This document shows positions 18,089 to 41,136 of a stretch of 64,000 bases of DNA, piece by piece (position 1 is the first letter of the stretch; every line of letters starts with the position of its first letter). Position numbers and translations under genes: made by a program. The notes beneath the pieces were generated by a model. The model worked only from the letters and a program-made list of their open reading frames with translations, searched no databases and had not been told where the DNA came from. The DNA is from Anaerolineales bacterium (GTDB lineage Bacteria; Chloroflexota; Anaerolineae; Anaerolineales; UBA6663): positions 1 through 64,000 of the forward strand of contig JADZEK010000090.1 in assembly GCA_020850595.1 (NCBI GenBank), written 5' to 3'.

Positions 18089-19390
<1,302 letters not shown>

Positions 19391-21795: not shown

Positions 21796-22839
21796 GTGCG
21801 TAAAACGGCTCAAATCGGCCTGGGGTTGGTCATCAGCCTCCTGGCGTTGGCCCTGGCCTTTCGCGGCGCGAACCTCCAACTCATGGGGGCGGCGCTGCGG
21901 GAGGCCAACTATTTGTACCTCCTCCCCTCAGCCCTGTTGGTCATTGCGGGCCTTTATGCGCGCGCGCTCAGTTGGCGCACCATCCTGGATGGGCGCGTGC
22001 CGTATGGCCGCGTGTTCGATGCCATGAACGAAGGCTACCTGCTCAACAACCTGCTACCGCTGCGCCTGGGCGAGTTGGGCCGCGCTTATCTCATCAGCCG
22101 CCCCGGCCAGGTGAGCGCGTTGCAGGCCCTGTCTTCGGTGCTTGTTGAGCGACTGATTGACCTCATCATGGCGGTCGTGCTGCTGCTGGCGTTCCTGCCG
22201 TTCGTGCCGGGGCTGGAAAGCGCGCAGGGGCTGGTCGGCACGTCGGTGGCGCTCGGTCTGGTGGGCCTGGTCTGCCTGATCCTCGCGGCCCGCTACCGCG
22301 CCGCGCTGGTGGGGCTGGCCCAGCGGGTGCTCAACCGGCTGAACTGGCCCTGGCTGCACCCAGAGCGTATAGTGGCCCGGCTCGACTCGTTCCTTAGCGG
22401 GCTGGCGGTGCTGCAAGACCCACGGCGCGCCCTGGCCGCCGCGTTCTGGTCCGGCCTGGCCTGGGCCGCCGCCGCCTACAGCACTTACTTCCTCTTGATT
22501 GCTTTCGTGCCGGCGGCCACGATCCCCATGGCCTTTATCGTGCTCACGGTCGTTGCGTTGGGCGGGGCGGTGCCGTCGCTGCCGGGCGGCGTGGGCCTGT
22601 TCGAGGCTTTTGTCGTCGGCATCCTGGCCGTCTTCGCGGTGGAGGGCAGCCGGGCGCTGAGCTTTGGCCTGATCTTCCACGCCCAACAGATCGCCCTAAC
22701 GACGCTGCTGGGCAGCCTGGCGCTTGGCCGCGAGGGCCAAACCCTGGGCCACCTGGCGCGCGCGGCTCAGACCTTCGTCACCCGCCCTGAGCAAGCCGCG
22801 CCGCCAGACGCCGCGGCTCCGGCTCGCCCTGACCAATGA
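21796..22839 (+). CDS. Flippase-like membrane protein (UPF0104/LPG-synthase TM domain, AglD-like)
   Basis: The 347-residue protein has about eight hydrophobic segments and the family signature FRGANLQLMGAALREANY at the N-terminus, NNLLPLRLGELGRAYLI around residue 90, and the C-terminal PSLPGGVGLFEAF (about 257-270). This domain occurs in the lysylphosphatidylglycerol synthase N-terminus and in AglD-like proteins, where it is linked to lipid or lipid-linked sugar translocation. No fused C-terminal transferase domain is present. Start GTG. Its stop overlaps the GT4 start (ATGA), so the two are translationally coupled. Confidence 0.9.
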   Translation: MRKTAQIGLGLVISLLALALAFRGANLQLMGAALREANYLYLLPSALLVIAGLYARALSWRTILDGRVPYGRVFDAMNEGYLLNNLLPLRLGELGRAYLISRPGQVSALQALSSVLVERLIDLIMAVVLLLAFLPFVPGLESAQGLVGTSVALGLVGLVCLILAARYRAALVGLAQRVLNRLNWPWLHPERIVARLDSFLSGLAVLQDPRRALAAAFWSGLAWAAAAYSTYFLLIAFVPAATIPMAFIVLTVVALGGAVPSLPGGVGLFEAFVVGILAVFAVEGSRALSFGLIFHAQQIALTTLLGSLALGREGQTLGHLARAAQTFVTRPEQAAPPDAAAPARPDQ

Positions 22840-23996
22840 AAGTCCTCATCGCGCTGACCTATTACCGCCCGCACGTCTCGGGGCTGACCATCTACGTCGA
22901 GCGGCTGGCGCGGGCGCTGGTGGCGCGCGGCCACAGCGTGACCGTGCTGACCTCCCAGTATGACCGCCAGTTGGCCCTGCGCGAGGCGCTCGACGGCGTG
23001 ACGGTGGTGCGCGCGCCGGTTGCCCTGCGCGTGAGCAAGGGCGTCATCATGCCCACCATTGGGGCGCTGGCGCAGCAGCTCGTGCCCGCGCACGATGTCG
23101 TCAGCCTGCATCTGCCGCAGCTCGACGCGGCCGGCATCGGCCTGCGCGGGCGGCTGTTCCACAAGCCCGTCGTCGTGACCTATCACTCCGACCTCATCTT
23201 GCCGCCGTCGCTAGTCAACTGGGCGGCACAGACGGTGTCGGACCTGGCGAACGACCTGACCGCGGCCGTGTCTGATCGGCTGATCGCCTACACTGACGAC
23301 TTCGCGCGGCACTCACGCTATCTGTCCAAGTACCTGCCCAAGGTCACCGTCATCCCGCCGCCGGTGGAGATGCCCGTGCCCGACCCGGCGGTGGTGGCGG
23401 CCTTCAGACAGCAGCACCGGCTAGACGGCTCCGGCCCGGTGATTGGGCTGGCCGTGCGCCTGGCCGCTGAGAAAGGTGTGGAGTACCTGCTGGGCGCCCT
23501 CCCGGCCCTCCTGGCGCAGTACCCCGACCTGCGCGTGCTGCACGCCGGGCCGCGCGAGGCCATCGGCGAGGCGGCCTATTTGCACAAGCTGGATCAGCTC
23601 ATCGCGCCGTTTTCCGAGCGCTACACCTTCCTGGGCACGCTCAATCCGGCGCAAATGGCGGTGTTCTTCAGCGCCTGCGCTGTGCACGTGCTGCCGAGCA
23701 TCAACAACACCGAGACCTTTGGGCTGGTGCAGATCGAGGCAGCGCTGTGCGGCACGCCGACGGTCGCCAGCGCGCTGCCAGGGGTGCGCATGCCCACGCA
23801 AATGACGGGCATGGGCCGCACCGCGCCGCCCAAGGACTCACAGGCCCTGGGCGAGGCAATCCTTGACGTGCTGGCTCACCGCGCCGACTACGTGAAGCCG
23901 CGCGCGCCGATTGCGGAGCTGTTCGCGCCGGCCACTACTGCCGCGCGCTACGAAGAAATCTTCACCGGCCTGCTGCGGGCCAAGAGCAAGGGCTGA
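22836..23996 (+). CDS. Glycosyltransferase family 4 (GT-B) protein
   Basis: The 386-residue cytoplasmic enzyme has an N-terminal GT-B half (MKVLIALTYYRPHVSGLTIY, then VVTYHSDLILPPS) and a C-terminal nucleotide-sugar-binding half with GLAVRLAAEKGVEYLLGAL, FLGTLNPAQMAVFFSAC and the ExFGLxxxE motif as ETFGLVQIEAALCG. It would add a sugar from an NDP donor to a lipid or glycan acceptor. The overlap with the upstream flippase-like gene and the methyltransferase 10 bp downstream support an envelope-glycolipid role. Donor and acceptor are unknown. Confidence 0.92.
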   Translation: MKVLIALTYYRPHVSGLTIYVERLARALVARGHSVTVLTSQYDRQLALREALDGVTVVRAPVALRVSKGVIMPTIGALAQQLVPAHDVVSLHLPQLDAAGIGLRGRLFHKPVVVTYHSDLILPPSLVNWAAQTVSDLANDLTAAVSDRLIAYTDDFARHSRYLSKYLPKVTVIPPPVEMPVPDPAVVAAFRQQHRLDGSGPVIGLAVRLAAEKGVEYLLGALPALLAQYPDLRVLHAGPREAIGEAAYLHKLDQLIAPFSERYTFLGTLNPAQMAVFFSACAVHVLPSINNTETFGLVQIEAALCGTPTVASALPGVRMPTQMTGMGRTAPPKDSQALGEAILDVLAHRADYVKPRAPIAELFAPATTAARYEEIFTGLLRAKSKG

Positions 23997-24006
23997 GGCG
24001 ACTGCC

Positions 24007-24813
24007 GTGCAGGACGATTTGCTGTGGCGCAACCTTAAGGAACTGCCCGCCTTCCGCGGCCTGCTGCGGGCGGTGGAGGCGCGCTTCTACCAGGACTTGC
24101 CGCTGCCCGAGCCGGTGCTCGACCTGGGCAGCGGCGACGCACATTTCGCTTCCGTGGCCTTCAATCACCCGCTGGCCGTGGGCGTAGACCCCTGGACGCC
24201 GCCGCTGCGCGAAGCCGCCCGCCTGCGCCGCACGGCCTACAACCTGCTGGTGCAGGCCGAGGGCGGGTCGCTGCCGTTCGCCGGCAACCACTTCGCCAGC
24301 GCCATGAGCAACTCAGTGCTCGAGCATATCCCGGTGCTGGAGCCGGTGCTGGCCGAGGTGGCCCGGGTGCTGCAGCCGGGCGCGCCCTTCATCTTTTGCG
24401 TGCCGAGCGACCACTTTCTGAGCTTCCTCTCCATCTCTGCCGGGCTGCGGCGCGTGGGGCTGCGCGGGCTGGCCGAGCAGTACGAGACCTTCTTCAACCG
24501 CATCTCGCGCCACCACCACTGCGACGGCCCGGAAGTGTGGCGGGTACGCCTGGCCGCGGCCGGGCTGACGCTCGAGCGGCATTGGTACTACTTTTCGCCC
24601 GCCGCGCTGCGCGCGCTAGAGTGGGGCCACTACTTCGGCCTGCCTGCCGCCGTGGCGCACACACTCACCGGTCGGTGGGTGCTCGCGCCCAACCGCGCCA
24701 ACCTGGCCGTCACCGAGCGCCTGCTGCGCCGTTACTATGACGAGCCGCTGCCCGAGAAAGGCGCCTATTTGTTCTTCATCGCTCGGAAAGCAAAATCGGC
24801 CTCGGGCGTGTAG
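24007..24813 (+). CDS. SAM-dependent methyltransferase (class I)
   Basis: This 268-residue protein starts at GTG (GAGG eight bases upstream), directly after the GT4 gene. The Rossmann SAM-binding motif VLDLGSGDAHFASVAF is at about residues 37-52, an acidic GVDPW follows, and the post-motif region SNSVLEHIPVLEPVLAEVARVL is typical of methyltransferase 11 proteins. The C-terminal part (CDGPEVWRVRLAAAGLTLE) is also standard. It probably methylates a sugar or lipid head group in the same pathway; the exact substrate is unknown. Confidence 0.88.
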   Translation: MQDDLLWRNLKELPAFRGLLRAVEARFYQDLPLPEPVLDLGSGDAHFASVAFNHPLAVGVDPWTPPLREAARLRRTAYNLLVQAEGGSLPFAGNHFASAMSNSVLEHIPVLEPVLAEVARVLQPGAPFIFCVPSDHFLSFLSISAGLRRVGLRGLAEQYETFFNRISRHHHCDGPEVWRVRLAAAGLTLERHWYYFSPAALRALEWGHYFGLPAAVAHTLTGRWVLAPNRANLAVTERLLRRYYDEPLPEKGAYLFFIARKAKSASGV

Positions 24814-24865
24814 AATAGCCCGGCGTTGGCCCGGATTGGCTGGGCCACCCTGAATCCACCGCGTC

Positions 24866-27211
24866 ATGACGCCTACTCCGTCCGTCCTCGACTGGCTGAA
24901 ATACAAGCTGGGCCAGCCACGCGCGCAGCGTTGGCTGCGCTTTGGATTGGCCGCTCTGTTTGCTGTGGTCGGCGTGCTGGCCCTGGTGGGCGCGGTGACT
25001 CCCAGCCTGGGGGCCGTGCTTGTTCTAGCTGTGGCAGTGGGCCTGTTCTTCTGGGGCCTGTCGGTGCGCGGGGCGAACGCGCCTGCGGCCGAAATGCCCG
25101 GCCTGACCCTGCCCGCGGCCCGCCCGGCCCCGGCCGCCGCCCCCGCTGAAGACGCCCCCGCCCGCGCCGCGCTCTTTGACCGCGAGCAGTTGATCAAGCT
25201 GATGGCCGGGGCGCGGCTGCCCTCGGCGCTGGTGCTGACCGTGGCGGGCCAAAGCCTGCTGCTGGCCGACCCGCCCAAGGTAGCGGCTGGGGTCACGCTG
25301 CTGGCGGCGGGCGTGGCGCTATTCGCCGTGGTGGTGTGGTACGACCACCTGCTGGGCACGGCGCGGCCGGTGGAAACCGAGGCCGAAAGCAAGCTCGATT
25401 TTCGCTGGTGGCTGTTGGGCGCGGCGCTGGTGTTGGGGGCTTATGGCTTTTACGCCGCGGGTGACAACACCTACCGCTGGGGTGGGGTGATCGCCTGGGT
25501 GCTCAGCCTGGCGGCCTGGATGGCCGCGCTGTGGGATTGGCGCACACCGCCGGCCGAGATGGCCCGCCGCAGCCTGGCCCGCCTGGGCGCGCTGGCGGAG
25601 ACCAAAGGCCTTGCAATCCCGCTCTCACGCGTGGCGCTGGTCTTCCTGATCGTGCTCGGCATCGGCGCCTACTTCCGCTTCGCCCAACTCGATGCCATTC
25701 CGCCGGAAATGACGTCGGACCACGTTGAGAAGCTCTTCGACGTGAACGACGTGCTCAACGGCAGGCACCCGGTCTTCTTTGAGCGCAACACCGGCCGCGA
25801 GCCGCTGCAATTCTACTTCGCCGCGCTGCTGATCGAGCTGTTCCACACGGGGGTCACGCACCTCACGCTCAAACTCACCGGCGCGATTGCCGGGCTGGTG
25901 ATGCTGCCGTTCATGTTCCTGATCGGCAAGGAGCTAGAGGACACGGAGTTCGGCCTGTGGGCCATGCTGCTGGCGGGCATGAGCTTCTGGGCTGTCGCCA
26001 TCAGCCGGGTGGGACTGCGCTTCCCGCTCACGCCGCTGTTCGTGGCGCCCATGCTGTGGTTCCTGTTGCGGGCGCTGCGCCGCAACAGCCGCAACGACTT
26101 TCTGCTGGCGGGCCTGACGCTCGGGCTGGGCCTGTACGGCTACAGCACCATCCGGCTCGTGCCGCTGGTGATCGTGCTGGCGGTGGTGATCTGGCTCATC
26201 TGGTCGCCGCCGGGGCGCTCGCGCCGGCAGCTCATCGCCAACACCATCCTGCTCTTCGCCACGACCTTCTTCACCTTCCTGCCGCTCTACCGCTACGCCA
26301 TTTCACCCGACAACATCTTCTGGTATCGCTCGTTCTCGCGCCTGACGGGTGAGGAACAGGCCATCAACGGCTCGGTGATCCAGATCTTCCTCGAGAACAA
26401 CTGGAACGCCTTGCGCATGTTCAACTATTTGGGCGACCAGGTGTGGGTGAACACGCTGCCCGGCAAGCCGTCGCTCGACTACATCACCGGGGCGCTGTTC
26501 CTGTTCGGCGTGGCGTTCGCGCTGGGGCGGGTAGTCTTCCGCCGCGACCGCGTGGCGCTGTTCCTGCTGCTGGCGCTCCCCGTGCTGTTATTACCCTCCA
26601 CCCTGAGCGTCGCCTTCCCGAACGAGAACCCGTCGGTGGTGCGGGCGGGCGGGGCCATCCCGGTTGTGTTCACTCTCACGGCTTACCCCTTGTGGCTGCT
26701 CTGGAAACGCTTGCGGGCGGTGTGGCCGGGGCTGCGCGGCCTGTGGGCGCGGCGGCTGATCTTTGGGGCGATGGTGACTGCCGTCTTCGTGGTCAACAGC
26801 GATATGTACTTCCGGCAGTATCCGCGGCAGTACCTGGGCGGAGCCGAGAACGCCTCCGAGATCGGCGCGGTGGTGCGCGACTTCGCGCAATCCATCGGCT
26901 CGTACGACCGGGCGTGGATGTGCCTGCACCCCTACTGGGCCGACACCCGCGCGGTGGGCATTTACGCCGGGCAGGTGGGCTGGGAGCAGGTGCTGCCGCC
27001 CGACCAGTTGGGCCAGCTAGCCGGCGACCCGCGCCCGCTGCTAATCGTGATGCACCCGCAGGGCCAGGATTGCATCGCCGCTGCGCGTCAGCTCTTCCCC
27101 ACCGGCACGCTGACGCTGCGGCACTCCGCCCGCGACCCCAACCACGACTATCTGCTGTTCTTCGTCCCCGGCACCGAAGATCTGGACGAAACCACCCTGC
27201 CGCAGCCCTAG
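24866..27211 (+). CDS. ArnT/PMT-like membrane glycosyltransferase (GT39-type, GT-C fold)
   Basis: The 781-residue protein has an N-terminal extension with several hydrophobic segments and an alanine/proline-rich linker (to about residue 180). A GT-C core follows: the first loop carries RFAQLDAIPPEMTSDHVEKL (about 267-290), with acidic residues in the place of the usual DE motif, and EPLQFYFAALL follows. Further hydrophobic segments run to about residue 640, then an external C-terminal domain. Such enzymes move sugars from polyprenyl-phosphate donors to lipid or protein acceptors on the outer membrane face. It sits in the envelope cluster, 52 bp after the methyltransferase gene. Confidence 0.87.
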   Translation: MTPTPSVLDWLKYKLGQPRAQRWLRFGLAALFAVVGVLALVGAVTPSLGAVLVLAVAVGLFFWGLSVRGANAPAAEMPGLTLPAARPAPAAAPAEDAPARAALFDREQLIKLMAGARLPSALVLTVAGQSLLLADPPKVAAGVTLLAAGVALFAVVVWYDHLLGTARPVETEAESKLDFRWWLLGAALVLGAYGFYAAGDNTYRWGGVIAWVLSLAAWMAALWDWRTPPAEMARRSLARLGALAETKGLAIPLSRVALVFLIVLGIGAYFRFAQLDAIPPEMTSDHVEKLFDVNDVLNGRHPVFFERNTGREPLQFYFAALLIELFHTGVTHLTLKLTGAIAGLVMLPFMFLIGKELEDTEFGLWAMLLAGMSFWAVAISRVGLRFPLTPLFVAPMLWFLLRALRRNSRNDFLLAGLTLGLGLYGYSTIRLVPLVIVLAVVIWLIWSPPGRSRRQLIANTILLFATTFFTFLPLYRYAISPDNIFWYRSFSRLTGEEQAINGSVIQIFLENNWNALRMFNYLGDQVWVNTLPGKPSLDYITGALFLFGVAFALGRVVFRRDRVALFLLLALPVLLLPSTLSVAFPNENPSVVRAGGAIPVVFTLTAYPLWLLWKRLRAVWPGLRGLWARRLIFGAMVTAVFVVNSDMYFRQYPRQYLGGAENASEIGAVVRDFAQSIGSYDRAWMCLHPYWADTRAVGIYAGQVGWEQVLPPDQLGQLAGDPRPLLIVMHPQGQDCIAAARQLFPTGTLTLRHSARDPNHDYLLFFVPGTEDLDETTLPQP

Positions 27212-27251
27212 CCGGGCAGCGGATTGCGCTTCGCGCTAACGGATGTAACGG

Positions 27252-30200
27252 ATGACTCTGGCTGAGCCGGATAAGCTTGTCCCGCAAACCCCCGATTCGC
27301 AGGCCGCTGACGCGGCTATGACTGAGCCGGCCGCCGCGCCGCCGGCTGACGTGCCGCCCCCCATACCGCCCGCGCCGCGCGCCCGGCTGGGCCGCCGCCT
27401 GTCGCCGTGGGGGCTGGCGCTGGATGTGGCGCTGCTGGCCCTGATCGTCATCGGCGTCTACTTTCGCTTTGCCTGGCGCGACTGGAACCAGGGCGCGGCG
27501 CTGCACCCCGACGAATATGGGCTGACGAACACGCTCACGACGCTGCGCCTGCCGGCGACCCTGGGCGAGTATTTCAACACGCGCCTGTCGCCCCTCAGCC
27601 CCTACCAGAAATACGACCTCGACGGTAACCCCCTGCCGCCCAGCAGCGACTACCCCATGCCCGACAACCGCATGCGCTGGGGGCAGTGGCCGCTGACCAT
27701 CATCCGCTTCGTGGCCGAGGCGACCGACACCACCGGCTATGACGAACTGCGTCTGACCGGCCGCAGCCTCTCGGCGCTGGCCGACGCGCTGGCGGTGCTG
27801 GTGCTGTTCTTCATCGGCTTGCAGCTCTACAACTACCGCGTGGGCCTGATCGCGGCGGCGCTGAGCGCGCTGGCCGTGATGCAGATTCAGCAGTCGCACT
27901 TTATGACGGCCGACAACTTCGGCACACTCTTCACGGCGTTGGCGATGTATGCGGCCGTGCGCGTTGCCACCGACCGCCCCCGCCGCCGGCGGCTGTTGGC
28001 GGCGGAACTGGCCGACTCCGCTGCGCCGGTCGCGCCCGCTGGCCTGCCTGACCAACTGCGCGCGCGGCTGGCGGCGGGGCACCCCTGGCTGTGGTATGCG
28101 CTGTTTGGCGTGTTCTTCGGCATGGCGCTCGCCAGCCGCGTGAACCTGGCCCCGTTGGCGGCCGAGATAATCGTGGCGGCCGTCATCGCCTACGCCGCCG
28201 AGTGGCAGCGCGGAGAAGCCGTACTCGGCGGCGACCGCACCACGCTGCTCACCGACGCCGTGCTGCGCCTGGCGCTGGCGGGCGCGGTGACGTTGCTGAC
28301 GTTCCGGGTGACGCAGCCGTGGAGCTTCCGCGCCAAGACCGGCGACACGACGCTCCTGACGCTCCAGCCCAACCAGGAATGGCTCGACAGCATGGCGGTG
28401 GCGCAGAGCGAGAGCAAGGGCCTGGGCGGCCCGCCCGCCGAGCAGTGGACCAACCGCACGGCGCTGGTCTTCCCCTTTACCAATATGGTGCTATGGGGCA
28501 TGGGGCTGCCGCTGGGCCTGACGGCCTGGGGCGGCCTGCTGTGGGCGACGTGGCGCGCCTTCAAGCGCGACGACGACTGGAGCTGGAAGCAGCACGCGCT
28601 GCCGCTGACCTGGGCGGGCGGCTACTTCCTCTTCATGGGCACGCGCTGGGTCAAGTCCATCCGCTATTTCCTGCCCATCTACCCGTTCATGGCGCTGTTC
28701 GCGGCCTGGGCGATCTGGCAGTTGTGGCAGGTCTACCGTGCCAAACAAGCGCAGACGGCCTTGGGGCAGGGGACTCAAGGGTCTCTCGCCACTGACTCCA
28801 CGCCGCGTCCGATTGCTCAGCCACCGAGGCCCCTGAGTCCCCAGTTCCTCAAATGGGCGTCTATCGCCCTCGGCGCTGTCGTCCTCGTCGGCACCCTCGC
28901 CTGGGCTTGGGGCTTCACTTCAATCTACCGCCACCTGAACACGCGGTTGGCGGCGACGCGCTGGCTCTACGACCACGTGCCGGGGCCGTTCACGCTCCAA
29001 CTGGACACCACCGGCAGCCCGAGCACCGAGATCATCCCTGTGCCTGACGGACTGACCCTCAGCGGCGATCAGCCATACCTGACGCAGTTCACGGCGCACC
29101 AGAGCGGCACGGTCAACGGCTTTACCGTGGCGCGTGCCTGGAACCCGCTCGACCCGGCGGGCGGGGCGACGCTGCACGTGGTGCTGGCCGCCGACCCGGA
29201 GGGCCGCACCGTGCTGGCGCAGGGCGACCTGGCCGTTGGTGACAGCGACGGCGGCGCGACCTACACCATGCCGTTTGGGCCGGTGGCGCTGACCGAGGGC
29301 ACGACCTACTTCGTGCAGACCTCGGCCGCGGCGGGCGCGACGGTGGAAGTGCGGAACATCGTGATGACCAACGAGAGTTGGGACGAGCCGGTGCCGGTGC
29401 GCTGGGCTAACTACGATCCCTTCGGCGGCATCTACCGCGGCGTCACGATGGACATGCAGAATTTCGATGACGCCAACAAGAAGCAGATGATCCTCGACAG
29501 CCTGGCGCAGGCCGAGTACGTCGTCATCCCCAGCCAGCGCCGCCTGTGGGCTAGCACGCGCATCCCCGCCACTTACCCGATGACCATTGCCTACTACCGG
29601 GCGCTCTTCGACGGCTCGCTGGGCTTCGATTTGGTCGCCAGCTTCCAGGCGCCCATCGCCATCGGCCCGCTGCAAGTGTCGGCCGAGGCCGCCACGCTGG
29701 CCTGGGGCCGTGCGCCCGCCAACCCGCCGCCCGGGCCGGAGTTCCCGCTCAACAACGGCATCTTCGCGGCGGAAGAGGCTTTCAGCGTCTACGACCACGC
29801 GCCGGTGTGGATCTTCCGCAAGCGCGCCGACTTCAGTCTGGCCCAGGCGCAGGCCGTGCTTGATGCGGTAGACCTGACCACCGTCGTCAACCTCGGGCCG
29901 ATCCCGGCGACCGAGACGCCCACGGCGCTGCGCCTGCCGGCCAACCTGCTCGCTATCTTGCGCGCGGGCGGCACGTGGAGCAGCATGTTCCACTTCGACG
30001 GGCTGCTCAACCGCTATCAGTTTTTGGGCGTGGCGGCGTGGTATCTGCTGTTTCTCATGGCCGGGTGGCTGGCCGTGCCGCTGGCGTTCGTCACCTTCTC
30101 CGGCCTGCCCGACCGCGGCTATGCCCTGACGAAGACTCTGACCCTGCTGGTGGTCACCTGGCTGGTGTGGATGGCCGGCAATGTGCGGCTCTTACCCTTC

Positions 30201-32801
30201 ACGCAACTGACGGTGCTCCTGGGCTTCCTGGCGCTGGCCGCGCTCTCCGGCTTCATCTACTGGCGGCGGCGCGCCGAGATTAACGCTTTCGTGCGCGAGC
30301 GGAAGCGCTACCTGCTTGTCTTCGAGGCGGTGTGGCTGAGCCTGTTCGTCTTTGACCTGCTCATCCGCCTGGGCAACTCCGACTTGTGGCACACAAGCTT
30401 CGGCGGCGAGAAGCCGATGGTGTTCTCGTTCTTCAACGCCGTGCTCAAGAGCGCGTTCTTCCCGCCCTACAACCCGTGGCTGGCGGGCTACGCGCTTAAC
30501 TATTACTACTATGGCTTCGTGGTCGCCGCCATCCCGACCAAGCTGCTGGGCATCGTGCCCGCCTTTGCCTACAACCTGCTGCTGCCCACGTTCTTCGCGC
30601 TGGTGGGCGGCAACGCCTTTGGCGTGGCCTACAACCTGGTGGCGGCGGGCCGCGAGTGGGTCAAGCCGCTGAATGGCAGCGAGGCGGCCGGCACACAGGG
30701 CGGGGGGACTCAGGGGGAGATTGCCGCCGAGCGTGTGGTAGGGCCAACGCTGCTGGTGAGCGAGGCCGATTTGTCGCCGGAGACGGTGAATGTCTCGGGC
30801 GTGGGCGGCGGCGGTGAGGCGCCCGAGGGCGAAGCAGCCTCGGCGGAGGCCGCGGTGGCGCTACCGGCTGAGGCCACCGGCGAGCCGACGCCGATTCCGG
30901 TGGGCTTTCCGGTGCCGGGGAGGCGAGCGCCACAGACGCGCGGCCCGAACCCGTACCTCGCGGGCGTCGCGGCGGCGCTGCTGGTGGTGGTGCTGGGCAA
31001 CCTGGCGCAGGTCTACACCTTCGCCAACGGCTTCATGCGCGCCGCCGATCACGGGGCGCTCGCCAACTCGGCGCTGGGCGACAATGACCTCACGGCCGTC
31101 GTCAACGGCTTCTGGCGCGTCGTCACCGGGCAGACCAACCTGCCCGTGGGCACCGGCTCGTGGTATTGGGACGCCACGCGCATCGTGACCAGCCTGGTGC
31201 CGGAGAACGGCGGCGAGATCACCGAGTTCCCGTTCTTCACCTTCCTCTACGCCGACATGCACGCCCACATGCTCGACATGCCCTTCACGCTGCTGGCGCT
31301 GGCCTGGGCGGTGAGCTATGTGCTGGCGAGCCGGGCCGATGGGCCGCGCCGCCGCTGGCTGGAGTGGGGGGCGGTGTGGGCCGTGGGCGGGCTGGCGCTG
31401 GGCATCACCCGCGCCACCAACACCTGGGACTACCCGCTCTTCCTGGCGCTGGGAATGCTGGCGATTGTGGCGGGCGAATGGCTGCGCCAGCCCACGCTCT
31501 CGCGCGCCACGCTGTTTGCCATCGGCTGGCGGCTGGCGCTGCTCTTTGGGCTGGTCACGCTGGCCTATCACCCCTTCGACGCCTGGTTCGCGGCCGCCTA
31601 TAGCGAGGTCAAGCGCTGGGAAGGCAACTCCATTCCCCTGAGCGGCTACCTCTACATCCACGGCCTGTTCCTGTTCCTGATCGTCACCTTTTTGGCCTGG
31701 GAGACGCGCCGCTGGCTGGCCGAGACGCCCGCCACGGCGCTGACCGCCGCCGGCGAGTGGCTGCCGATTGTGGCGCTGGCCGGCTTGGTGGTGCTGGCCG
31801 CCCTCGGGCTGATGGTTTTTGTCTTCGAGCGGCCCATGGCGCTGATCGCCGTGCCGCTGATGGTCTGGGCGGGCGTGCTGCTGCTGCGGCGCGGCCCGGC
31901 GCTCTCTACCTCCAAACGGCTGACGCTGTTTCTCATCGGCACGGCGCTGGCGATGACGGTCTTCGTGGAGTTCTTCGCGCTGGCCGGCGACCGCATGAAC
32001 ACCATCTTCAAGTTCTACATTCAGGTCTGGGTGGTCTTCAGCGTGGTGGGCGGGGCGGCGTTGGCCTGGGTGTGGGGGGCGCTGCCCGACTGGCGCCCGA
32101 GCTGGCGCACGGCCTGGGTCAGCGCTCTGATGGTGCTGACCGCCGCGGCCGCGCTCTACACCGTCACCGCCGCCTCGGCCAAGCTGCGCGACCGCTTCCC
32201 GTCGCTGGGCGTCACCGCGACGCCCGAGCAGGGCTGCGCCGCCATCCCCGGCATGATCTTGCCCTACGACCGCGGTTTGCCTGAAAGCCAGCAAGGGCAC
32301 AGCCTGTACGGCCTGGATTATATGACGTGGAGCGCCTACTGCGACCACGATTACTTCCTGCCGCTGACCTACGACCACGCCGCCATCCGTTGGCTGCAAG
32401 ACAACGTGGTCGGCTCGCCGGTGATCGTGGAAGCGCAGTCATTCGACCTCTACCGTATGTCGAGCCGCTACGCCTGGAACACCGGCCTGCCCGACGTGGT
32501 GGGCTGGGACTACCACACCCGCCAGCACAACGGCGCTATCCCGACCGAGTTTGTCACGACGCGTGGCGTGGAGGTGACCAACTTCTACACCACCACCGCG
32601 CCCGACGACGCGCTGGCCTTCCTGAGCAAGTACGACGCGCGCTTTGTCATTGTCGGCCCGATGGAGCAAGCCTACTACCTGAGCAGCGGCGGGCTGGATA
32701 AGTTCGGCTTCCTGGTCGCGCGCGGCGACCTGACGATTGTGTATCAGAACCCCGGCGTGACTATCTACGCCGTGGCCGGCACGCCGCTGGTGGGCCAATA
32801 A
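27252..32801 (+). CDS. Giant membrane protein: GT39-like N-terminal half fused to DUF2298 (Chlor_Arch_YYY)
   Basis: This 1849-residue protein joins two membrane modules. The N-terminal half has a GT-C-like start with ALHPDEYGLTNTL (about residues 84-97) and TGRSLSALADALAVLVLFF, then an external beta-rich domain (about 560-900). The second half has the DUF2298 blocks: GGEKPMVFSFFNA (about 1050), LNYYYYGFVVAA (about 1080), DMHAHMLDMPF (about 1334) and RMNTIFKFYIQ (about 1580). A low-complexity Gly/Glu/Ala insert lies between about 1135 and 1230. The blocks match those of the next gene. DUF2298 proteins are inferred to be membrane glycosyltransferases or lipid-linked sugar handlers; the reaction is unknown. 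Confidence 0.88.
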   Translation: MTLAEPDKLVPQTPDSQAADAAMTEPAAAPPADVPPPIPPAPRARLGRRLSPWGLALDVALLALIVIGVYFRFAWRDWNQGAALHPDEYGLTNTLTTLRLPATLGEYFNTRLSPLSPYQKYDLDGNPLPPSSDYPMPDNRMRWGQWPLTIIRFVAEATDTTGYDELRLTGRSLSALADALAVLVLFFIGLQLYNYRVGLIAAALSALAVMQIQQSHFMTADNFGTLFTALAMYAAVRVATDRPRRRRLLAAELADSAAPVAPAGLPDQLRARLAAGHPWLWYALFGVFFGMALASRVNLAPLAAEIIVAAVIAYAAEWQRGEAVLGGDRTTLLTDAVLRLALAGAVTLLTFRVTQPWSFRAKTGDTTLLTLQPNQEWLDSMAVAQSESKGLGGPPAEQWTNRTALVFPFTNMVLWGMGLPLGLTAWGGLLWATWRAFKRDDDWSWKQHALPLTWAGGYFLFMGTRWVKSIRYFLPIYPFMALFAAWAIWQLWQVYRAKQAQTALGQGTQGSLATDSTPRPIAQPPRPLSPQFLKWASIALGAVVLVGTLAWAWGFTSIYRHLNTRLAATRWLYDHVPGPFTLQLDTTGSPSTEIIPVPDGLTLSGDQPYLTQFTAHQSGTVNGFTVARAWNPLDPAGGATLHVVLAADPEGRTVLAQGDLAVGDSDGGATYTMPFGPVALTEGTTYFVQTSAAAGATVEVRNIVMTNESWDEPVPVRWANYDPFGGIYRGVTMDMQNFDDANKKQMILDSLAQAEYVVIPSQRRLWASTRIPATYPMTIAYYRALFDGSLGFDLVASFQAPIAIGPLQVSAEAATLAWGRAPANPPPGPEFPLNNGIFAAEEAFSVYDHAPVWIFRKRADFSLAQAQAVLDAVDLTTVVNLGPIPATETPTALRLPANLLAILRAGGTWSSMFHFDGLLNRYQFLGVAAWYLLFLMAGWLAVPLAFVTFSGLPDRGYALTKTLTLLVVTWLVWMAGNVRLLPFTQLTVLLGFLALAALSGFIYWRRRAEINAFVRERKRYLLVFEAVWLSLFVFDLLIRLGNSDLWHTSFGGEKPMVFSFFNAVLKSAFFPPYNPWLAGYALNYYYYGFVVAAIPTKLLGIVPAFAYNLLLPTFFALVGGNAFGVAYNLVAAGREWVKPLNGSEAAGTQGGGTQGEIAAERVVGPTLLVSEADLSPETVNVSGVGGGGEAPEGEAASAEAAVALPAEATGEPTPIPVGFPVPGRRAPQTRGPNPYLAGVAAALLVVVLGNLAQVYTFANGFMRAADHGALANSALGDNDLTAVVNGFWRVVTGQTNLPVGTGSWYWDATRIVTSLVPENGGEITEFPFFTFLYADMHAHMLDMPFTLLALAWAVSYVLASRADGPRRRWLEWGAVWAVGGLALGITRATNTWDYPLFLALGMLAIVAGEWLRQPTLSRATLFAIGWRLALLFGLVTLAYHPFDAWFAAAYSEVKRWEGNSIPLSGYLYIHGLFLFLIVTFLAWETRRWLAETPATALTAAGEWLPIVALAGLVVLAALGLMVFVFERPMALIAVPLMVWAGVLLLRRGPALSTSKRLTLFLIGTALAMTVFVEFFALAGDRMNTIFKFYIQVWVVFSVVGGAALAWVWGALPDWRPSWRTAWVSALMVLTAAAALYTVTAASAKLRDRFPSLGVTATPEQGCAAIPGMILPYDRGLPESQQGHSLYGLDYMTWSAYCDHDYFLPLTYDHAAIRWLQDNVVGSPVIVEAQSFDLYRMSSRYAWNTGLPDVVGWDYHTRQHNGAIPTEFVTTRGVEVTNFYTTTAPDDALAFLSKYDARFVIVGPMEQAYYLSSGGLDKFGFLVARGDLTIVYQNPGVTIYAVAGTPLVGQ

Positions 32802-32816
32802 GGGCGCGGGCTAAGC

Positions 32817-35579
32817 ATGGCGTCTGACCTGCCGGCCTTTCTCGCGTGGTACGCGGCCGTGGCCGTGGCGGGCCTGGCGGCTCTGCCGCTGGCCTTCCGG
32901 CTGTTCCAGCGGCTGCCCGACCGGGGCTATGGGTTGGCGCGGCTGCTGGGGCTGCTGCTCATTGGTTACGCCTTCTGGTTCCTGGGCTCGCTGGGCTTTC
33001 TGCGCAACGACAACGGCGGGTTGGTGTTCGCCGCGCTGCTGGTGGGCGGGCTGGGCTGGCTGTGGCTGGGCCGCGCCGGTTGGGCCGAACTGCGCGCCTG
33101 GCTGAGCGCCGAGCGCGCCACCGTGCTGGCGGTGGAGGCGCTCTTCCTGGCGGCCTTCGCGCTGCTAGCCTGGGTGCGCGCCTACCAGCCCGACATCCAC
33201 GGCACCGAGAAGCCGATGGAGTACATGTTCATTAACAGCATCCTGCGCAGCCCGGCCTTCCCCGCGCAAGATGCCTGGCTCTCCGGCCACGCCATCAGCT
33301 ACTACTACTTCGGGTATGTCATCATCGCCGCGCTGGCGCGCGTGACCGCCACCGACGCGGCCGTGGCCTTCAACCTGGGGCTGGCGCTGCTCTTCGCGCT
33401 CACGGCGGTCGGCGCGCACAGCCTGGTGCAGAACCTGATTGCGCTGACGCGGCGGTTGAAGCCGGCTGACCCGCTGGCCGGCGCGTTTGGCCCCGCGCTG
33501 CTCGCGCCGCTGTTCGTGCTGATCGTCGGCAACTTCTACGGCGTGGCGCAATCGGCCTACGTGAACGGCCTGTTCCCCGAGGCCAAGATTTGGACCGTGC
33601 GCTATTACTTCGGCGCGGACGACCCGGCCAATCCGGTGTGGACGGACGAGGAGCGGGCCGCGTTGCCGCCGGAAGTCGCCAACCCCGGCTTGCGGGCCGA
33701 GTGGGTGAACCTGTGGGCCTGGCTCGACCTGAAGCAGGTGGGGCTGCCCGCGCCGGAGCGCCGCCCGCAGTTCACCTGGGACGTGGGCGGCAACTGGTTT
33801 TACGGCGCGCGCGTGGTGCACGACCGTAGCCTGACCGGCGGCGAGTCGGAGGCGATTGACGAGAACCCGGCCTTCTCGTTCATCCTGGGCGACATGCACC
33901 CGCACGTGCTGGCGCTGCCGTTTAGCATGTTGGCCGCCGCGCTGGCGCTGGCCTGGCTGCTGTGGGGGCAAGACGCCAACGCCGCTGCACCAGACGCGCT
34001 GGAGTTGACGCCCGCCGCGCTGCGCCGCCCGGCGATCTTCGTCACGCTGCTGCTGGCAGCCCTGATCCTGGGCGGGCTGTCGTTCCTCAATACCTGGGAC
34101 TTTCCCATCTACCTGTTCCTGACCATGGCCGCGCTGGCGGCGGGCCTGGGCCTGCGCCTGGGTTGGGCGGGCCTCGTGGCGCAGGCGGGGCGGCTGGCGG
34201 CGCTGGCCGTGGGGCTGGCCGCGCTGAGCGTGGCGCTCTACTTCCCCTTCTACCTGACCTTCCAGTCGCAGGCGGGCGGCCTCCTGCCCAACCTGATCTG
34301 GCCGACGCGCTTTCAGCAGACGGTGGTGTTCTTCGGGCCGGTGTTGCTGGGCGTGGCGGGCTACCTCGCCTGGCTGACCGCGCGCGGCCGCCGCCTGGTG
34401 GACTGGCGCTCCGGTCTGTGGGCGGGTGGGGGGCTGGTGGGCGTGCTGGTGTTCGCGGTGGCGGCGCTGGCCTTCCTCGCCTCACGCAGCCCGAGCCTGG
34501 TCGGTGTGGTAGAGGGCTTCCTGGCCCCGCTCTCGCTCGACACCGCGCTCGGCCTCGTCATCCAGCGCCGCCTGGTGGATAGCCTCGCCACGCTCTGCCC
34601 CGGCGCACTGATCGTGCTGGCCGTGGGCCTGCTGATCGGCATTGCCCGCCAACCGGCGCCGGAAACCGCGGCCCTGCCCGCCCCAGAAGCCGCGCCCGAA
34701 GTGCCGGAGGCCGCCGCGCCCGTCGAAGCCGAAGCTGCCCCGGCCGCCCGCCCGTGGCGTCGCCGCCCGGCCAACCCGTTCGCCCCGGCCCCGGCTGTAA
34801 GCGTGGTGGAACTGCTGCGCTCGCCCGCCGTGCTCATGGCGCTGGTGATGGCGCTGACCGGCGCGCTGCTGCTGCTGGGGCCGGAGTGGGTGTACCTGCG
34901 CGACAACTTCGGCTGGCGCATGAACACCATTTTCAAGTTTTACTTTCAGGCCTGGAACCTATGGGCGCTGGTGACGGCCTTTGCCCTGTGGCATACATGG
35001 CAGTACTTCCGCGTGGTAGTGCGCTGGGTAGTGGGCGCTGCCGCCGGCCTGGTCGTCTTCGGCGGGCTGATCTACACGCTGCCCAGCCTGTACAGCTACA
35101 CCGGCGGCTTCGCGCGCGCGCCCTCGCTCGACGGCATGGCCTGGTTCGCCAACGCCTACCCCGATGACTGGGCAGGTATTCAATGGCTGCGCGCCAACGT
35201 CAGCGAGTCGCCGGTGGTCGCCGAGGCGGTTGGCGGCTCGTATGCGATTGAAGAAAGCCGCATGGCGACGGGCACCGGTCTGCCCACCGTCATGGGCTGG
35301 GTCAATCACGAAGGGCAGTGGCGCGGCAATTACTACGCGCAAGTGGGCGGCCGGGTGGGCGACCTGGCCGCGCTCTACCAGTCGCGCGAGTGGGCCGACG
35401 CGCAGGCCGTCCTCGACAAGTACAACATTGAGTATGTCGTCGTCGGCGCCGCCGAGCACCGCAAGTACGACGTAGAGAACCAGCGGGTGTGGCAAGATAA
35501 ATTCGAGCGCAACATGGATAACGTCTTCAGTTCGGGCAGCCTGACCATCTATCGCCGCAAGCCGGAGGCCGTGCCATGA
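32817..35579 (+). CDS. DUF2298 (Chlor_Arch_YYY) membrane protein
   Basis: The 920-residue protein has many hydrophobic segments and the same ordered blocks as the C-terminal half of the preceding fusion: GTEKPMEYMFINS (about residue 130), ISYYYFGYVIIAA (about 160), GDMHPHVLALPF (about 358) and WRMNTIFKFYFQ (about 700), with a C-terminal external domain (IQWLRANVSESPVVAEA, VLDKYNIEYVVVGAAE). It also has an alanine/proline-rich linker at about 615-665. The arrangement next to a related fusion suggests gene duplication or partner proteins. Its stop overlaps the start of the next gene (ATGA), so translation is coupled. The biochemical function of DUF2298 is not established. Confidence 0.9.
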   Translation: MASDLPAFLAWYAAVAVAGLAALPLAFRLFQRLPDRGYGLARLLGLLLIGYAFWFLGSLGFLRNDNGGLVFAALLVGGLGWLWLGRAGWAELRAWLSAERATVLAVEALFLAAFALLAWVRAYQPDIHGTEKPMEYMFINSILRSPAFPAQDAWLSGHAISYYYFGYVIIAALARVTATDAAVAFNLGLALLFALTAVGAHSLVQNLIALTRRLKPADPLAGAFGPALLAPLFVLIVGNFYGVAQSAYVNGLFPEAKIWTVRYYFGADDPANPVWTDEERAALPPEVANPGLRAEWVNLWAWLDLKQVGLPAPERRPQFTWDVGGNWFYGARVVHDRSLTGGESEAIDENPAFSFILGDMHPHVLALPFSMLAAALALAWLLWGQDANAAAPDALELTPAALRRPAIFVTLLLAALILGGLSFLNTWDFPIYLFLTMAALAAGLGLRLGWAGLVAQAGRLAALAVGLAALSVALYFPFYLTFQSQAGGLLPNLIWPTRFQQTVVFFGPVLLGVAGYLAWLTARGRRLVDWRSGLWAGGGLVGVLVFAVAALAFLASRSPSLVGVVEGFLAPLSLDTALGLVIQRRLVDSLATLCPGALIVLAVGLLIGIARQPAPETAALPAPEAAPEVPEAAAPVEAEAAPAARPWRRRPANPFAPAPAVSVVELLRSPAVLMALVMALTGALLLLGPEWVYLRDNFGWRMNTIFKFYFQAWNLWALVTAFALWHTWQYFRVVVRWVVGAAAGLVVFGGLIYTLPSLYSYTGGFARAPSLDGMAWFANAYPDDWAGIQWLRANVSESPVVAEAVGGSYAIEESRMATGTGLPTVMGWVNHEGQWRGNYYAQVGGRVGDLAALYQSREWADAQAVLDKYNIEYVVVGAAEHRKYDVENQRVWQDKFERNMDNVFSSGSLTIYRRKPEAVP

Positions 35580-37417
35580 CCGCCGCGCCGCAAATCGCTT
35601 CTCCTCGCCCGCGCCCCAGCCTGAGCCTGGAAGCCGCGCTCTACCTGCTGATCTTCTTCGTGGCGCTGGCGCTGCGGCTCTACCACCTGGGCGCGCACCC
35701 GCTCAACGACGCCGAGGCGCGGCAGGCGCTGTCGGCCCTCAACCTGCTGCGTGGGGCCGACGTGACGCCCGGCGCGCACAGCCCGGCCTACCTTTTCCTG
35801 AGCTACCTGTTGTTCCTGCTGTTCGGAGCCAGCGACGCCGCCGCGCGCTTTGGCCCGGCGCTAGCCGGGGCCGCCCTGGCGCTCACCCCCGCCCTCTACC
35901 GCGACCGGCTCGGCCGCCCAACGGCGCTGGCGCTGAGCGGCTTGCTGGCGGTCTCGGCTACGCTGCTGGCCGCCTCGCGCAGCGCCGATGGGCTGATCTT
36001 CGCGGTGCTGGCGCTGGCCTTCACGCTGGGCGCGCTTCGGGAGTGGGGGGCCAAAGGTAGTTGGCTGGGCGGCGGCGCGCGCGCGTGGCTGTTCCTCACC
36101 GCCATTGGCCTGGGGCTTGGCATTGCGAGCGGCGGGCGTTTGCTGCTCGGGCTGCTGGCGCTGGCGCTCGTCGGCGTCATCTGGCGCTGGACCGGCCCGG
36201 ACCAGGGCGCAGCCATAAAGGCGCTGTTGGGCCCGGTGCTGCGGGAGCGCCGGCTGTTCGCGCTCACGGCGGCCTTGAGCGCGCTGGTGATCGCCACTAT
36301 CGCGCTGGTGAGCCTGCGCGGGCTGGGGGTGCTGCTCGATAGCTGGCTGGCCGCGCTGGCCGGCTTCGTGCCCGCCGCGGCCGGCAGCCGGTCGCCGGTG
36401 GAGGTACTGCTCTTCCTGGTCGTCTATGAGCCGCTGCTGCTCATCTTTGGCCTGATCGGCGCGGTGCGGGCCTTCCGTACCGGCGATGGGCTGGGGCAGG
36501 CGCTGGCCTGGTTTGCGCTGGTCGCCCTAACGCTTATCGTCCTGTACAGCGCCCGGCAGGTGGCCGACCTGGCCTGGGTGGTGCTGCCGCTGGCCGGGCT
36601 GGCAGCCCGCGCGCTAGCGCATTACTTGCGCGATCTGACCAATCGCGCCGAGTGGCCGCTGGCCGCCGCGCAGGCCGGGCTGACCACGGCGCTACTGGGC
36701 TTTGCCCAACTCAACCTGGCCGGGCTGGCCCAAAGCGCGCGCAACACCGGTGCGTTCACTACCATTGGCGTGCCGGTGTTGGGGCAGACCTATCAAGTGT
36801 CGGCGCTGGCGCAGTTGGGCATCGCCGGGCTGGCCGTGACGCTCACGTTCGTCATCGCCTATCTGCTGGCGCTGGGCTGGTCGGCGGCAGCCGCGCGGCT
36901 GGGCCTGGCCGCGGCGGGCGCAGTCTTCTTGCTGGGGGCCACCCTAAGCGCAGGCTGGGGGCTGACCCAGCGCGGGCCGGGCAGCCCGGCCGAGCTGTGG
37001 TGGGCCGTGCCCGCCTCGCCCGACGTGGGCCGCTTGATGACGACGCTTACCGATGTGTCGAACTACACGGTTGGCAATCCGCACGATATTGAACTGACGG
37101 TGCAGGCCGAGGACGACGGCCTGCTGGCCTGGGCGCTGCGCAACTTCACGCACGCCAGTTTTGTGGACCGGCTGGACCCGGTCATTGACAGCCCGGTGGT
37201 CATCGCGCCGCTCGACACCACCAGCAACCCCACGCTCGGCTCGGCCTATGTCGGGCAGGCCTTTACCTTGCGCTCGACCTGGACGCCCGACCTGAGCCGC
37301 CCGGAGTGGGTGGTCTGGCTGGTCTTCCGCGTTGCGCCCACGCAGGTGAACGAGCCGGCGGTGCTGTGGGTGCGGCAAGACGTGCAGCAACTCCAGACGC
37401 CGGGCACAGGGAACTGA
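35576..37417 (+). CDS. GT39-like / Agl23-type (TIGR03663-like) membrane protein
   Basis: The 613-residue protein has about 12 hydrophobic segments. The first external loop carries LYHLGAHPLNDAEARQALSA (about residues 36-55), the acidic motif that matches the DE signature of GT-C dolichol/undecaprenyl-phosphate mannosyltransferase-like proteins and the TIGR03663 group described in archaea near AglD-like flippases. A C-terminal external region of about 140 residues includes VGNPHDIELTVQAEDDG. It overlaps the DUF2298 gene by four bases and is followed 15 bp later by cmk. The acceptor is unknown. Confidence 0.82.
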   Translation: MTAAPQIASPRPRPSLSLEAALYLLIFFVALALRLYHLGAHPLNDAEARQALSALNLLRGADVTPGAHSPAYLFLSYLLFLLFGASDAAARFGPALAGAALALTPALYRDRLGRPTALALSGLLAVSATLLAASRSADGLIFAVLALAFTLGALREWGAKGSWLGGGARAWLFLTAIGLGLGIASGGRLLLGLLALALVGVIWRWTGPDQGAAIKALLGPVLRERRLFALTAALSALVIATIALVSLRGLGVLLDSWLAALAGFVPAAAGSRSPVEVLLFLVVYEPLLLIFGLIGAVRAFRTGDGLGQALAWFALVALTLIVLYSARQVADLAWVVLPLAGLAARALAHYLRDLTNRAEWPLAAAQAGLTTALLGFAQLNLAGLAQSARNTGAFTTIGVPVLGQTYQVSALAQLGIAGLAVTLTFVIAYLLALGWSAAAARLGLAAAGAVFLLGATLSAGWGLTQRGPGSPAELWWAVPASPDVGRLMTTLTDVSNYTVGNPHDIELTVQAEDDGLLAWALRNFTHASFVDRLDPVIDSPVVIAPLDTTSNPTLGSAYVGQAFTLRSTWTPDLSRPEWVVWLVFRVAPTQVNEPAVLWVRQDVQQLQTPGTGN

Positions 37418-39651: not shown

Positions 39652-41136
39652 GTGAGCGCTTCCGCCCCGCCCCCTGAACCCACCCCTCGCGTCACCCGTG
39701 GCTTCATTGCCGAGGTCGAGCCGGACTCGCTCGCCGCCGACCTGGGCCTGCGCCCCGGCGACACCCTGCTGACCGTCAACGGCCACCCGGTCGAAGACGT
39801 AATAGACGTGCAGTTCTACGCCGCCGAAGACCGCGTGAGCGTGACCTTCGAGCGTGACGGCGCCGCGCAGACCGCCGCGGCCGACCGCGACGGCGGCCAG
39901 CCCCTGGGCCTGACATTCGAGCATCCTACCTTCGATATTGACATCCGGCGCTGCAACAACCTGTGCCCGTTCTGCTTCGTGCTGCAAACCGCGCCGCGCA
40001 TGCGCCGCACGCTCTACATCAAAGACGACGACTACCGCTACAGCTTCCTGTTCGGCCACTATGTCACCCTGACCAATCTCAGCCCGCACGACTGGGATCG
40101 CATCGCCGAGCAGCACCTCTCGCCGCTGTACGTCTCGGTGCATTCCACCGACCCGGCCAACCGCCGCGCCTGCCTGAGTAATCCCGGCGCGCCCGACGTG
40201 CTGGCGCAACTGCGCTGGCTGGCCGAACACAGCATCGAGGTGCACACCCAACTCGTCATCACGCCCGGCCTCAACGACGGCGCGTGGCTAGACCAGTCCA
40301 TCCGCGACCTGGCCGAGCTATACCCGGCGGTGCAGTCAGTCAGCGTGGTGCCCGTGGGCCTGACACGCCACCACAAGTACGGCCGTCGTGTCCACTCCCC
40401 CGCCGAGGCGGCGGAGATACTCGACAGCGTGGCCGTGTGGCAAGCGCGCTTCCGGCCCGAGTTCGGCGTGGGCTTTGTCTACCCCACCGACGAGTGGTTC
40501 CTCGTCACCGGCCGCCCGCTGCCGCCGCGCCGCTACTACGACGGCCTGGACCTGGCCGAGAACGGCATGGGCATGGTGCGGGCTTTCCTGGACGACTGGA
40601 AGAAAGTGAAGCGCGAGCTTAAGGCGCGCACCGGGCAGGCGGGGCAGCCGAAGCCCGGCAAGCCGAAATCCAAAGCGCCCCCAGAGCCGCTGTCCCTGGC
40701 GGGCCGCGCCGCCACGCTGGTCACGGCCACACTGTTCGAGCCGACCCTGCGCGCCGCCGCCGCCGAGTTCAACGCCGCCGCCGGCACGCGCCTCAACGTG
40801 GTGGGCGTGACCAACGAGCGCCTGGGCCACACTATCACCGTGGCGGGCTTGCTCATGGGCGCGGACATGCCCGCCCAACTCGCCGGGCGCGACCTGGGCG
40901 AATTCGTGGTACTGCCGCGCGTGATGTTCGACCATCCGCAAGGCATTAGTCTGGACGACGTCTCGCCGCTAACCATCGCCCAGCAGTTGGGCCGCCCGGT
41001 GTTCCTGGCCGATGCGCTTGGCGACGTGCTCGACGCCTTCACCGGCGATAACCCGCTGCGCATCGCGCCCGATCAGGCGGTCATCCCGCTCGACGTGATG
41101 CGCGCCGGCGGCTGGGCGGTGGAAAAGTACCTGTAA
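39652..41136 (+). CDS. PDZ / radical-SAM-like / DUF512 iron-sulfur protein
   Basis: The 494-residue protein has an N-terminal PDZ-like domain (about residues 14-80), a cluster motif C-x3-C-x2-C (C101, C105, C108 in RRCNNLCPFCFV), a TIM-barrel-like core with VSVHSTDPANRRACLSN and VITPGLNDGAWLDQS, and a C-terminal DUF512 domain (GADMPAQLAGRDLGEFVVLP, then DDVSPLTIAQQLGRPVFL). This is the TIGR03279-like group of radical SAM relatives of unknown reaction. A low-complexity KPGKPKSKAP insert sits near residue 345. It starts at GTG, 50 bp after the acyltransferase gene, and is the last gene before the glmS promoter. It is widely found near der or plsC-like genes. Confidence 0.9.
   Translation: MSASAPPPEPTPRVTRGFIAEVEPDSLAADLGLRPGDTLLTVNGHPVEDVIDVQFYAAEDRVSVTFERDGAAQTAAADRDGGQPLGLTFEHPTFDIDIRRCNNLCPFCFVLQTAPRMRRTLYIKDDDYRYSFLFGHYVTLTNLSPHDWDRIAEQHLSPLYVSVHSTDPANRRACLSNPGAPDVLAQLRWLAEHSIEVHTQLVITPGLNDGAWLDQSIRDLAELYPAVQSVSVVPVGLTRHHKYGRRVHSPAEAAEILDSVAVWQARFRPEFGVGFVYPTDEWFLVTGRPLPPRRYYDGLDLAENGMGMVRAFLDDWKKVKRELKARTGQAGQPKPGKPKSKAPPEPLSLAGRAATLVTATLFEPTLRAAAAEFNAAAGTRLNVVGVTNERLGHTITVAGLLMGADMPAQLAGRDLGEFVVLPRVMFDHPQGISLDDVSPLTIAQQLGRPVFLADALGDVLDAFTGDNPLRIAPDQAVIPLDVMRAGGWAVEKYL

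Follow-up and report, generated by a model that had tools for sequence, protein, structure and literature searches.

A fusion protein predicted to carry two tandem GT-C modules and its free DUF2298 paralogue in a recurrent gene block of Chloroflexota

The gene block and its products

The window, by which we mean the whole 64-kb stretch of DNA analysed, contains at 21796-37417 a block of genes that are all co-directional (+ strand), tightly packed and operon-like. The block opens with a flippase-like membrane protein of the LPG_synthase_TM/TIGR00374 type (21796-22839; PF03706, E 1.2e-50; TIGR00374, E 8.1e-21), followed by a GT4-type cytosolic glycosyltransferase (22836-23996; PF00534, E 2.2e-20) and a class-I methyltransferase (23911-24813; PF08241, E 6.9e-12), which is read from a TTG codon and whose real start may lie further downstream. 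Then come a PMT-like GT-C protein of 781 residues (24866-27211; PF13231, E 1.2e-11), a giant fusion protein (27252-32801), a free DUF2298 protein (32817-35579) and an Agl23-like membrane protein of 613 residues (35576-37417). The flippase-like and GT4 genes overlap by 4 nt, as do the genes for the free DUF2298 and the Agl23-like proteins, while gaps of 40 nt and 15 nt separate the fusion gene from the PMT-like gene upstream and the free DUF2298 gene downstream, respectively. An earlier note on this DNA had described one co-directional block that includes flippase-like, GT4 and methyltransferase genes, and the Pfam matches bore this description out.

The giant is encoded by one unbroken frame of 1849 residues. 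A Pfam search matched PMT_2 (PF13231) at residues 171-243 with an E-value of 4.9e-6 (27.3 bits, above the cut-off of 26.1) and DUF2298 at residues 967-1596 (30150-32039; E 1.4e-102), so that the protein does join a GT-C-like and a DUF2298 module, as had been claimed. The next gene encodes DUF2298 alone, in a protein of 920 residues (Pfam, E 2.6e-101). Both proteins also score above the cut-off of 300.25 bits for the NCBIfam family TIGR03662, 'Chlor_Arch_YYY' (441.1 bits for the giant and 480.6 for the free protein), and are thus members of TIGR03662/PF10060. The pattern search found the same ordered motifs in both, in agreement with the earlier note: EKPM (residues 131-134; 33207-33218), YYYFG (162-166), DMHPH (359-363; 33891-33905) and RMNTIFKFY (701-709; 34917-34943) in the free protein, and EKPM (1053-1056; 30408-30419), YYYYG (1084-1088), DMHAH (1335-1339; 31254-31268) and RMNTIFKFY (1581-1589; 31992-32018) in the giant. 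The DUF2298 half of the giant is complete: N-terminal helices known from the free protein are there too, shared from the stretch LPDRGY onward, and so is the motif series corresponding to E131 through K707.

The same note had counted two further GT39-like proteins in the block. This held for the product of 24866-27211, by its PMT_2 match. It did not hold in that form for the product of 35576-37417, for which the Pfam search gave no match and which resembles Agl23 (TIGR03663) at 67.8 bits, under the cut-off of 126.25, making it a distant relative of Agl23 of Haloarcula hispanica; its relationship to PMT-like proteins appeared only by profile comparison (98.4%). Each of these proteins carries a conserved acid motif, SDHVEK in the PMT-like protein (25715-25732; D285 and E288 each in 38 of 39 rows) and NDAEA in the Agl23-like protein (35705-35719; E47 in 40 of 41 rows).

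Predicted folds and candidate active sites

The first 960 residues of the giant were modelled with a pLDDT of 85.1, and the model matched Pmt1-Pmt2 (Z 28.6), AglB (Z 28.1) and ArnT (Z 27.4), and likewise STT3. The N-half is therefore PMT_2/GT39-like on two counts, namely the PF13231 score over the cut-off and the PMT-type GT-C fold of its model. The resemblance to PMT (GT39) and ArnT (GT83) covers both the fold and an acidic motif, HPDE, in the first outer loop (27504-27515). In the model the first outer-loop helix (residues 86-96) begins at this motif, and D87 and E88 were found in 49 of 49 non-gap rows of a 50-row alignment; D87 is the predicted catalytic acid. The giant differs from PMT and ArnT in its fusion to a second GT-C module and in a beta-sandwich insert (residues 580-710; 28989-29381), which is visible as strands in the model and is weakly CBM35-like (Foldseek matches 2w46, E 0.069, and 2w87, E 0.088). 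Trimmed hhalign comparisons linked the N-half, the PMT-like proteins and the Agl23-like proteins to one another at 96-99%.

The AlphaFold2 model of the free DUF2298 protein reached a pLDDT of 90.9 and a pTM of 0.94. A Foldseek search of the PDB returned six matches with E-values of 0.001 or below, all of them GT-C proteins (DPY19, AftA and AglB), but the superpositions were poor, with TM-scores (by query) of at most 0.36 and an rmsd of 16-21 Å. With VIA-align, the best match was the arabinofuranosyltransferase AftA (8if8_C), with a Z-score of 15.1 and 5.0 Å over 494 residues; this was also the best whole-length structural match and covered part of the N-terminal helices, at 14% identity. Other GT-C proteins followed, i.e., STT3 (8agc_A, Z 12.6), ALG12 (11.8), AglB (3waj, 11.7), DPY19 (11.1) and ArnT (10.7), where helical bundles can reach a Z-score of about 13 by common arrangement, a level that only AftA exceeds for DUF2298. 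Ranks 1-35 of the list were all GT-C proteins or C-terminal domains of AglB/STT3, and the first unrelated row was a cytochrome oxidase with a Z-score of 5.7. The C-terminal outer alpha/beta domain of the free protein (residues 776-915; 35142-35561) was AglB-CTD-like, superimposing on the AglB-S2 CTD (3vu0_A) with a Z-score of 10.6 and 2.7 Å over 118 residues. These data, in which the top matches by both methods were GT-C enzymes, answered the comparison that the earlier note had called for, and a GT-C fold for DUF2298 is well supported by the model. DUF2298 may already belong to the GT-C clan of Pfam.

At the level of sequence profiles, trimmed hhalign gave no link of DUF2298 to the GT39-like proteins (0.6% or less for the core), and the fused DUF2298 form reached 40% against the Agl23-like proteins. 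An initial comparison of alignments A2 and A3 had given 100%; it was discarded as an artefact because some rows of A3, the N-half alignment (49 of the 53 listed fused ORFs and the window protein), extended into the DUF2298 module, and the trimmed repeat gave no DUF2298-GT39 link. A sequence search of the PDB with the DUF2298 profile gave unconvincing matches, the best being LMBD1 (E 0.0018). The same search with the C-terminal domain returned many triosephosphate isomerases (E 0.007 and above), which we judged a chance likeness of YVxVGxxER to the TIM motif, and a single GT-C chain, the AglB-S2 CTD (E 0.043). From its modelled structure, DUF2298 thus appears to be a GT-C family that has diverged too far to be recognised by the sequence profiles used here. 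Because the N-half is PMT/STT3-like and the DUF2298 half GT-C-like in their models, the giant is predicted to consist of two GT-C modules in tandem, module 1 at about residues 50-900 and the complete DUF2298 module 2 at about residues 920-1849.

In the model of the free protein, E131 of the EKPM motif belongs to the first outer loop, after helix 100-123 (TM1 of the GT-C core) and before the helix of that loop at 132-144, at the place that corresponds in model order to D87 of HPDE in module 1. The DMHPH motif closes the long second outer loop, and RMNT (701-704) opens the late transmembrane helix 702-728; the positive-inside charge check gave a weak signal for this assigned topology. Known GT-C anatomy matches this order. 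In PMC7226087, the metal and catalytic residues D47, R154, D161, H163 and E360 of AglB are equated with D56, R147, D154, D156 and E319 of PglB; a Glu serves as the base in DPY19 (PMC10154233); and an Arg before a late transmembrane helix contacts the lipid phosphate in solved relatives (PMC7801869). E131, D359-x-H361 and R701 therefore have natural candidate roles, and we consider them, with moderate support from topology and conservation, a predicted GT-C active site: E131 as catalytic acid or base, the DMHPH motif as a metal site comparable to D161/H163 of AglB, and R701, perhaps with K707, in lipid-phosphate binding. The suggestion of the earlier note that DMHxH and RMNT are possible catalytic or phosphate-binding residues fits this map, by topology and conservation only.

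Likeness to AglB/STT3 (GT66) is predicted to comprise the GT-C fold, the D-x-H in the second outer loop and a similar C-terminal alpha/beta domain. On the other hand, the DUF2298 proteins of the window had no PF02516 match in the Pfam search, unlike GT66, and the pattern search found no WWD motif in either of them; the fused copy has GWDYH at residue 1751, which is a different motif. The first outer loop contains a Glu (E131) instead of the Asp of STT3 and AglB, and the model has three extra N-terminal helices. The Arg that precedes the metal Asp lies 7 residues before it in AglB, whereas the nearest invariant Arg of DUF2298 (R332) lies 27 residues before D359.

Conservation was assessed in an alignment of 133 DUF2298 copies (79 free and 54 fused) from the best 80 of 582 loci. 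E131 was Glu in 129 of 129 non-gap rows, and E349, P351, D359, H361, H363, N425, R701, N703, K707 and W713 were invariant in all 133 copies. Two free copies were left out of alignment A2, that of L102 for its excessive length and that of L108 because the contig end truncates it, and its fused ORFs were limited to 1500-2500 residues; alignment A6 used 48 of 132 rows. The motif residues were kept with few exceptions in a wider set of 67 domains, to which Chloroflexota contributed 63 besides the window's own two, and a clostridial protein and an archaeal piece one each. D359 was present in 33 of 33 fused and 28 of 30 free copies, being lost in two of the latter, and DLHAH and R-x-N-T-x-F-K were kept in the clostridial protein and the archaeal piece. 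Being retained in nearly all relatives, the motifs are not a product of chance.

Recurrence and descent of the fusion

Within the window's order, DUF2298 was found in 57 of the 61 genomes searched, and within the Chloroflexota in 194 of 300, the own genome being counted in both. A fusion of a PMT-like module and DUF2298 in one frame occurred in 32 of 37 genomes (40 stretches, 36 families of the phylum), a rate that is biased because the regions were picked from the stronger matches of the 300-genome search, one or two per family. The stretches examined of the other five (G124, G140, G168, G205 and G290) had no fusion, G205 having an unfused second DUF2298. The fusion was also present in the named strains Bellilinea caldifistulae and Flexilinea flocculi.

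In a tree of 66 domains, built by a quick method with a long outgroup and no bootstrap, 33 fused and 2 second-fused copies all fell on one side of a branch with an SH-aLRT of 96. This fits, but does not prove, an old split between fused and free DUF2298 as paralogues and one old fusion event. In two families (f33 and f66) the giant carries a second DUF2298; the giants of L120 and L141, of 2501 and 2679 residues, combine a PMT-like module with two DUF2298 modules, and a further free DUF2298 gene lies nearby.

The gene order of the block recurs as flippase-like, GT4, methyltransferase, PMT-like, fusion, free DUF2298 and Agl23-like, so that the conservation across Chloroflexota on which the earlier note had made its proposal depend was indeed found. 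Among the best 80 of 582 loci, which were selected by similarity to the free DUF2298 copy, the free copy was immediately preceded by a long fusion in 53 of 61 testable loci and followed by an Agl23-like gene in 54 of 62. The eight loci lacking the upstream fusion were L037, L065, L074, L075, L090, L091, L093 and L113; the frame at L090 appears broken, and L065 carries two DUF2298 genes, both unfused. Many more distant relatives (L053, L055, L084, L086, L088, L098, L102 and others) have a second, much longer Agl23-like protein of about 1000-1770 residues downstream of the short one. At the genome level, strong DUF2298 and Agl23 matches occurred together in 184 of the 300 Chloroflexota genomes; 3 had DUF2298 alone, 2 had Agl23 alone and 111 had neither, counts that are not independent because the genomes are related.

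The best 80 loci (L034-L113) came nearly all from Chloroflexota or Anaerolineae, together with one Bacteroidetes MAG (L107), and none was archaeal by title. Among 14 control genomes, DUF2298 was found in Haloferax volcanii and Methanosarcina acetivorans, and the Agl23 profile matched in four, over the cut-off in two. The only archaeal DUF2298 sequence analysed was a piece on a Halarchaeum plasmid, whose start lies beyond the record edge and whose neighbours include no glycosyltransferase genes. On a Pseudobutyrivibrio plasmid, a DUF2298 gene (L114:8462-10717) lies inside a polysaccharide locus, on the strand opposite to the neighbouring glycosyltransferase genes; the neighbours of this clostridial copy include genes for a glucosyltransferase, a GT2 protein, an O-antigen ligase and a sugar epimerase.

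Proposed pathway and competing explanations

Fold, motif conservation, paralogue split, gene order and co-occurrence were all obtained by computation; from here on, we infer catalysis, residue roles, outward orientation and product. We consider it probable, at roughly 0.7, that the tandem GT-C giant and its ancient free paralogue are glycosyltransferases that belong to a membrane-based pathway assembling an extracytoplasmic glycan. The cluster would most likely build this glycan from polyprenyl-linked sugars, and the product may be an envelope glycolipid or glycoprotein. The GT4 enzyme would begin the glycan inside the cell and the flippase-like proteins would carry intermediates outward, where the GT-C modules (the PMT-like protein, the two in the giant, the free DUF2298 protein and perhaps the Agl23-like protein) would lengthen or transfer the glycan, and a cap or other modification may be added by the methyltransferase. 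Within the giant, the N-half would act as a PMT/GT39-like polyprenyl-phosphate-sugar transferase facing the extracytoplasmic side and the C-half as a second complete GT-C glycosyltransferase with the same orientation, while the free DUF2298 protein would perform a second, related transfer. In each DUF2298 module, the residue equivalent to E131 would be the catalytic acid or base, D359-x-H361(-x-H363) would hold a metal ion in the way D161-x-H163 does in archaeal AglB, R701 would grip the lipid phosphate of the polyprenyl-linked donor, and the C-terminal alpha/beta domain would help acceptor binding.

A bolder extension, which we put forward only tentatively, is that DUF2298 forms a separate metal-dependent GT-C branch of Chloroflexota and archaea and that the giant, in organisms without STT3, is a two-active-site machine that builds and then transfers a glycan, with PMT-like and AglB-like halves acting in sequence and the free paralogue adding a second specificity. 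Slightly less probable, and in our view unlikely, is the reading that DUF2298 ligates oligosaccharides or polysaccharides en bloc, as STT3/AglB do, with a metal site that would handle a lipid diphosphate and a C-terminal domain that would select the acceptor. The AglB-like D-x-H (PMC7226087), the proximity of the C-terminal domain to that of AglB-S2 in structure and in the sequence search, and the lack of any STT3 (PF02516) match in the own genome speak for such a ligase; against it, the pattern search found WWD in neither DUF2298 protein, the presence of two or three DUF2298 copies in a genome is better suited to sugars being added one after another, and en bloc transfer does not follow from the presence of a metal, DPY19 being contrasted with both OST and PMT1/2 in PMC10154233.

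It is improbable that DUF2298 is a GT-C relative which has lost catalysis and instead binds lipid or serves as a scaffold, as PIG-U does in the GPI transamidase. A GPI-transamidase chain (9ub7_B, Z 8.2), presumably PIG-U by its size and match, was among the structural matches, and fusion to an apparently intact GT-C module could be scaffolding, but across deep divergence both paralogues, like the archaeal and clostridial pieces, keep the acid, metal-site and Arg/Lys residues with little or no variation. We regard as a little less probable still a flippase or scramblase for a lipid-linked sugar, a role suggested by Haloarcula hispanica Agl23, which translocates lipid-linked oligosaccharide in proteoliposomes (PMC11182771). 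DUF2298 co-occurs almost perfectly with Agl23, and Agl23-like proteins are PMT-related by profile; however, the invariant residues match an active-site layout that transport alone would not need. The source assembly, with 194 contigs and 9.58% contamination, might also have raised suspicion of an assembly or frame artefact, or of a recent local event, but the recurrence of the fusion across families and in named strains refutes this reading.

DUF2298/TIGR03662 is known as a widespread, catalogued family, whose name already contains the YYY motif and the Chloroflexota-archaea range. As catalogued it carries no function, to which the present analysis adds a predicted fold, a hypothesis for the active site and a split into two paralogues. 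The NCBI description of TIGR03662 presumably also speaks of long members with several domains and of co-occurrence with Agl23. The literature searched reported no function for DUF2298: full-text search found it named in two papers, of which one offers only an annotation. A full-text search for PF10060, IPR018746 and COG5427 found no paper, and no published polypeptide with two GT-C modules in tandem turned up in the literature search. With a predicted GT-C fold and specific residues as candidates for catalysis and for metal and phosphate binding, DUF2298 becomes an enzyme hypothesis that can be tested directly. Because the giant is conserved across the phylum, its product is suggested to be a fundamental component of the Chloroflexota envelope, about which little is known, and the recurrence of the giant with its neighbours points to an unstudied sugar-coat route. 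The shared DUF2298/Agl23 set ties the Chloroflexota system to archaeal surface glycosylation. If the two-active-site reading were true, an undescribed surface-glycan pathway would mark most of a major bacterial phylum.

Several other genes of the window were noted. Just upstream of the block, an HMG-CoA reductase gene (17999-19390, + strand; PF00368, E 1.4e-112) adjoins one for a flavin amine oxidoreductase (19421-20926), and a mevalonate-type isoprenoid supply from this reductase could feed polyprenyl carriers. A 622-residue protein with a weak DUF6056 match (12826-14694, - strand; E 2.3e-5, under the cut-off) is perhaps another membrane glycosyltransferase of envelope assembly; its gene adjoins that of a LytR-CpsA-Psr protein (14731-15819, - strand). 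Beyond the block lie a TIGR03279-like Radical SAM/PDZ/DUF512 protein (39652-41136, + strand; 368 bits, below the cut-off of 574.7) and a 981-residue protein with BTAD, AAA and TPR domains (43626-46571, - strand), which resembles large transcriptional activators.
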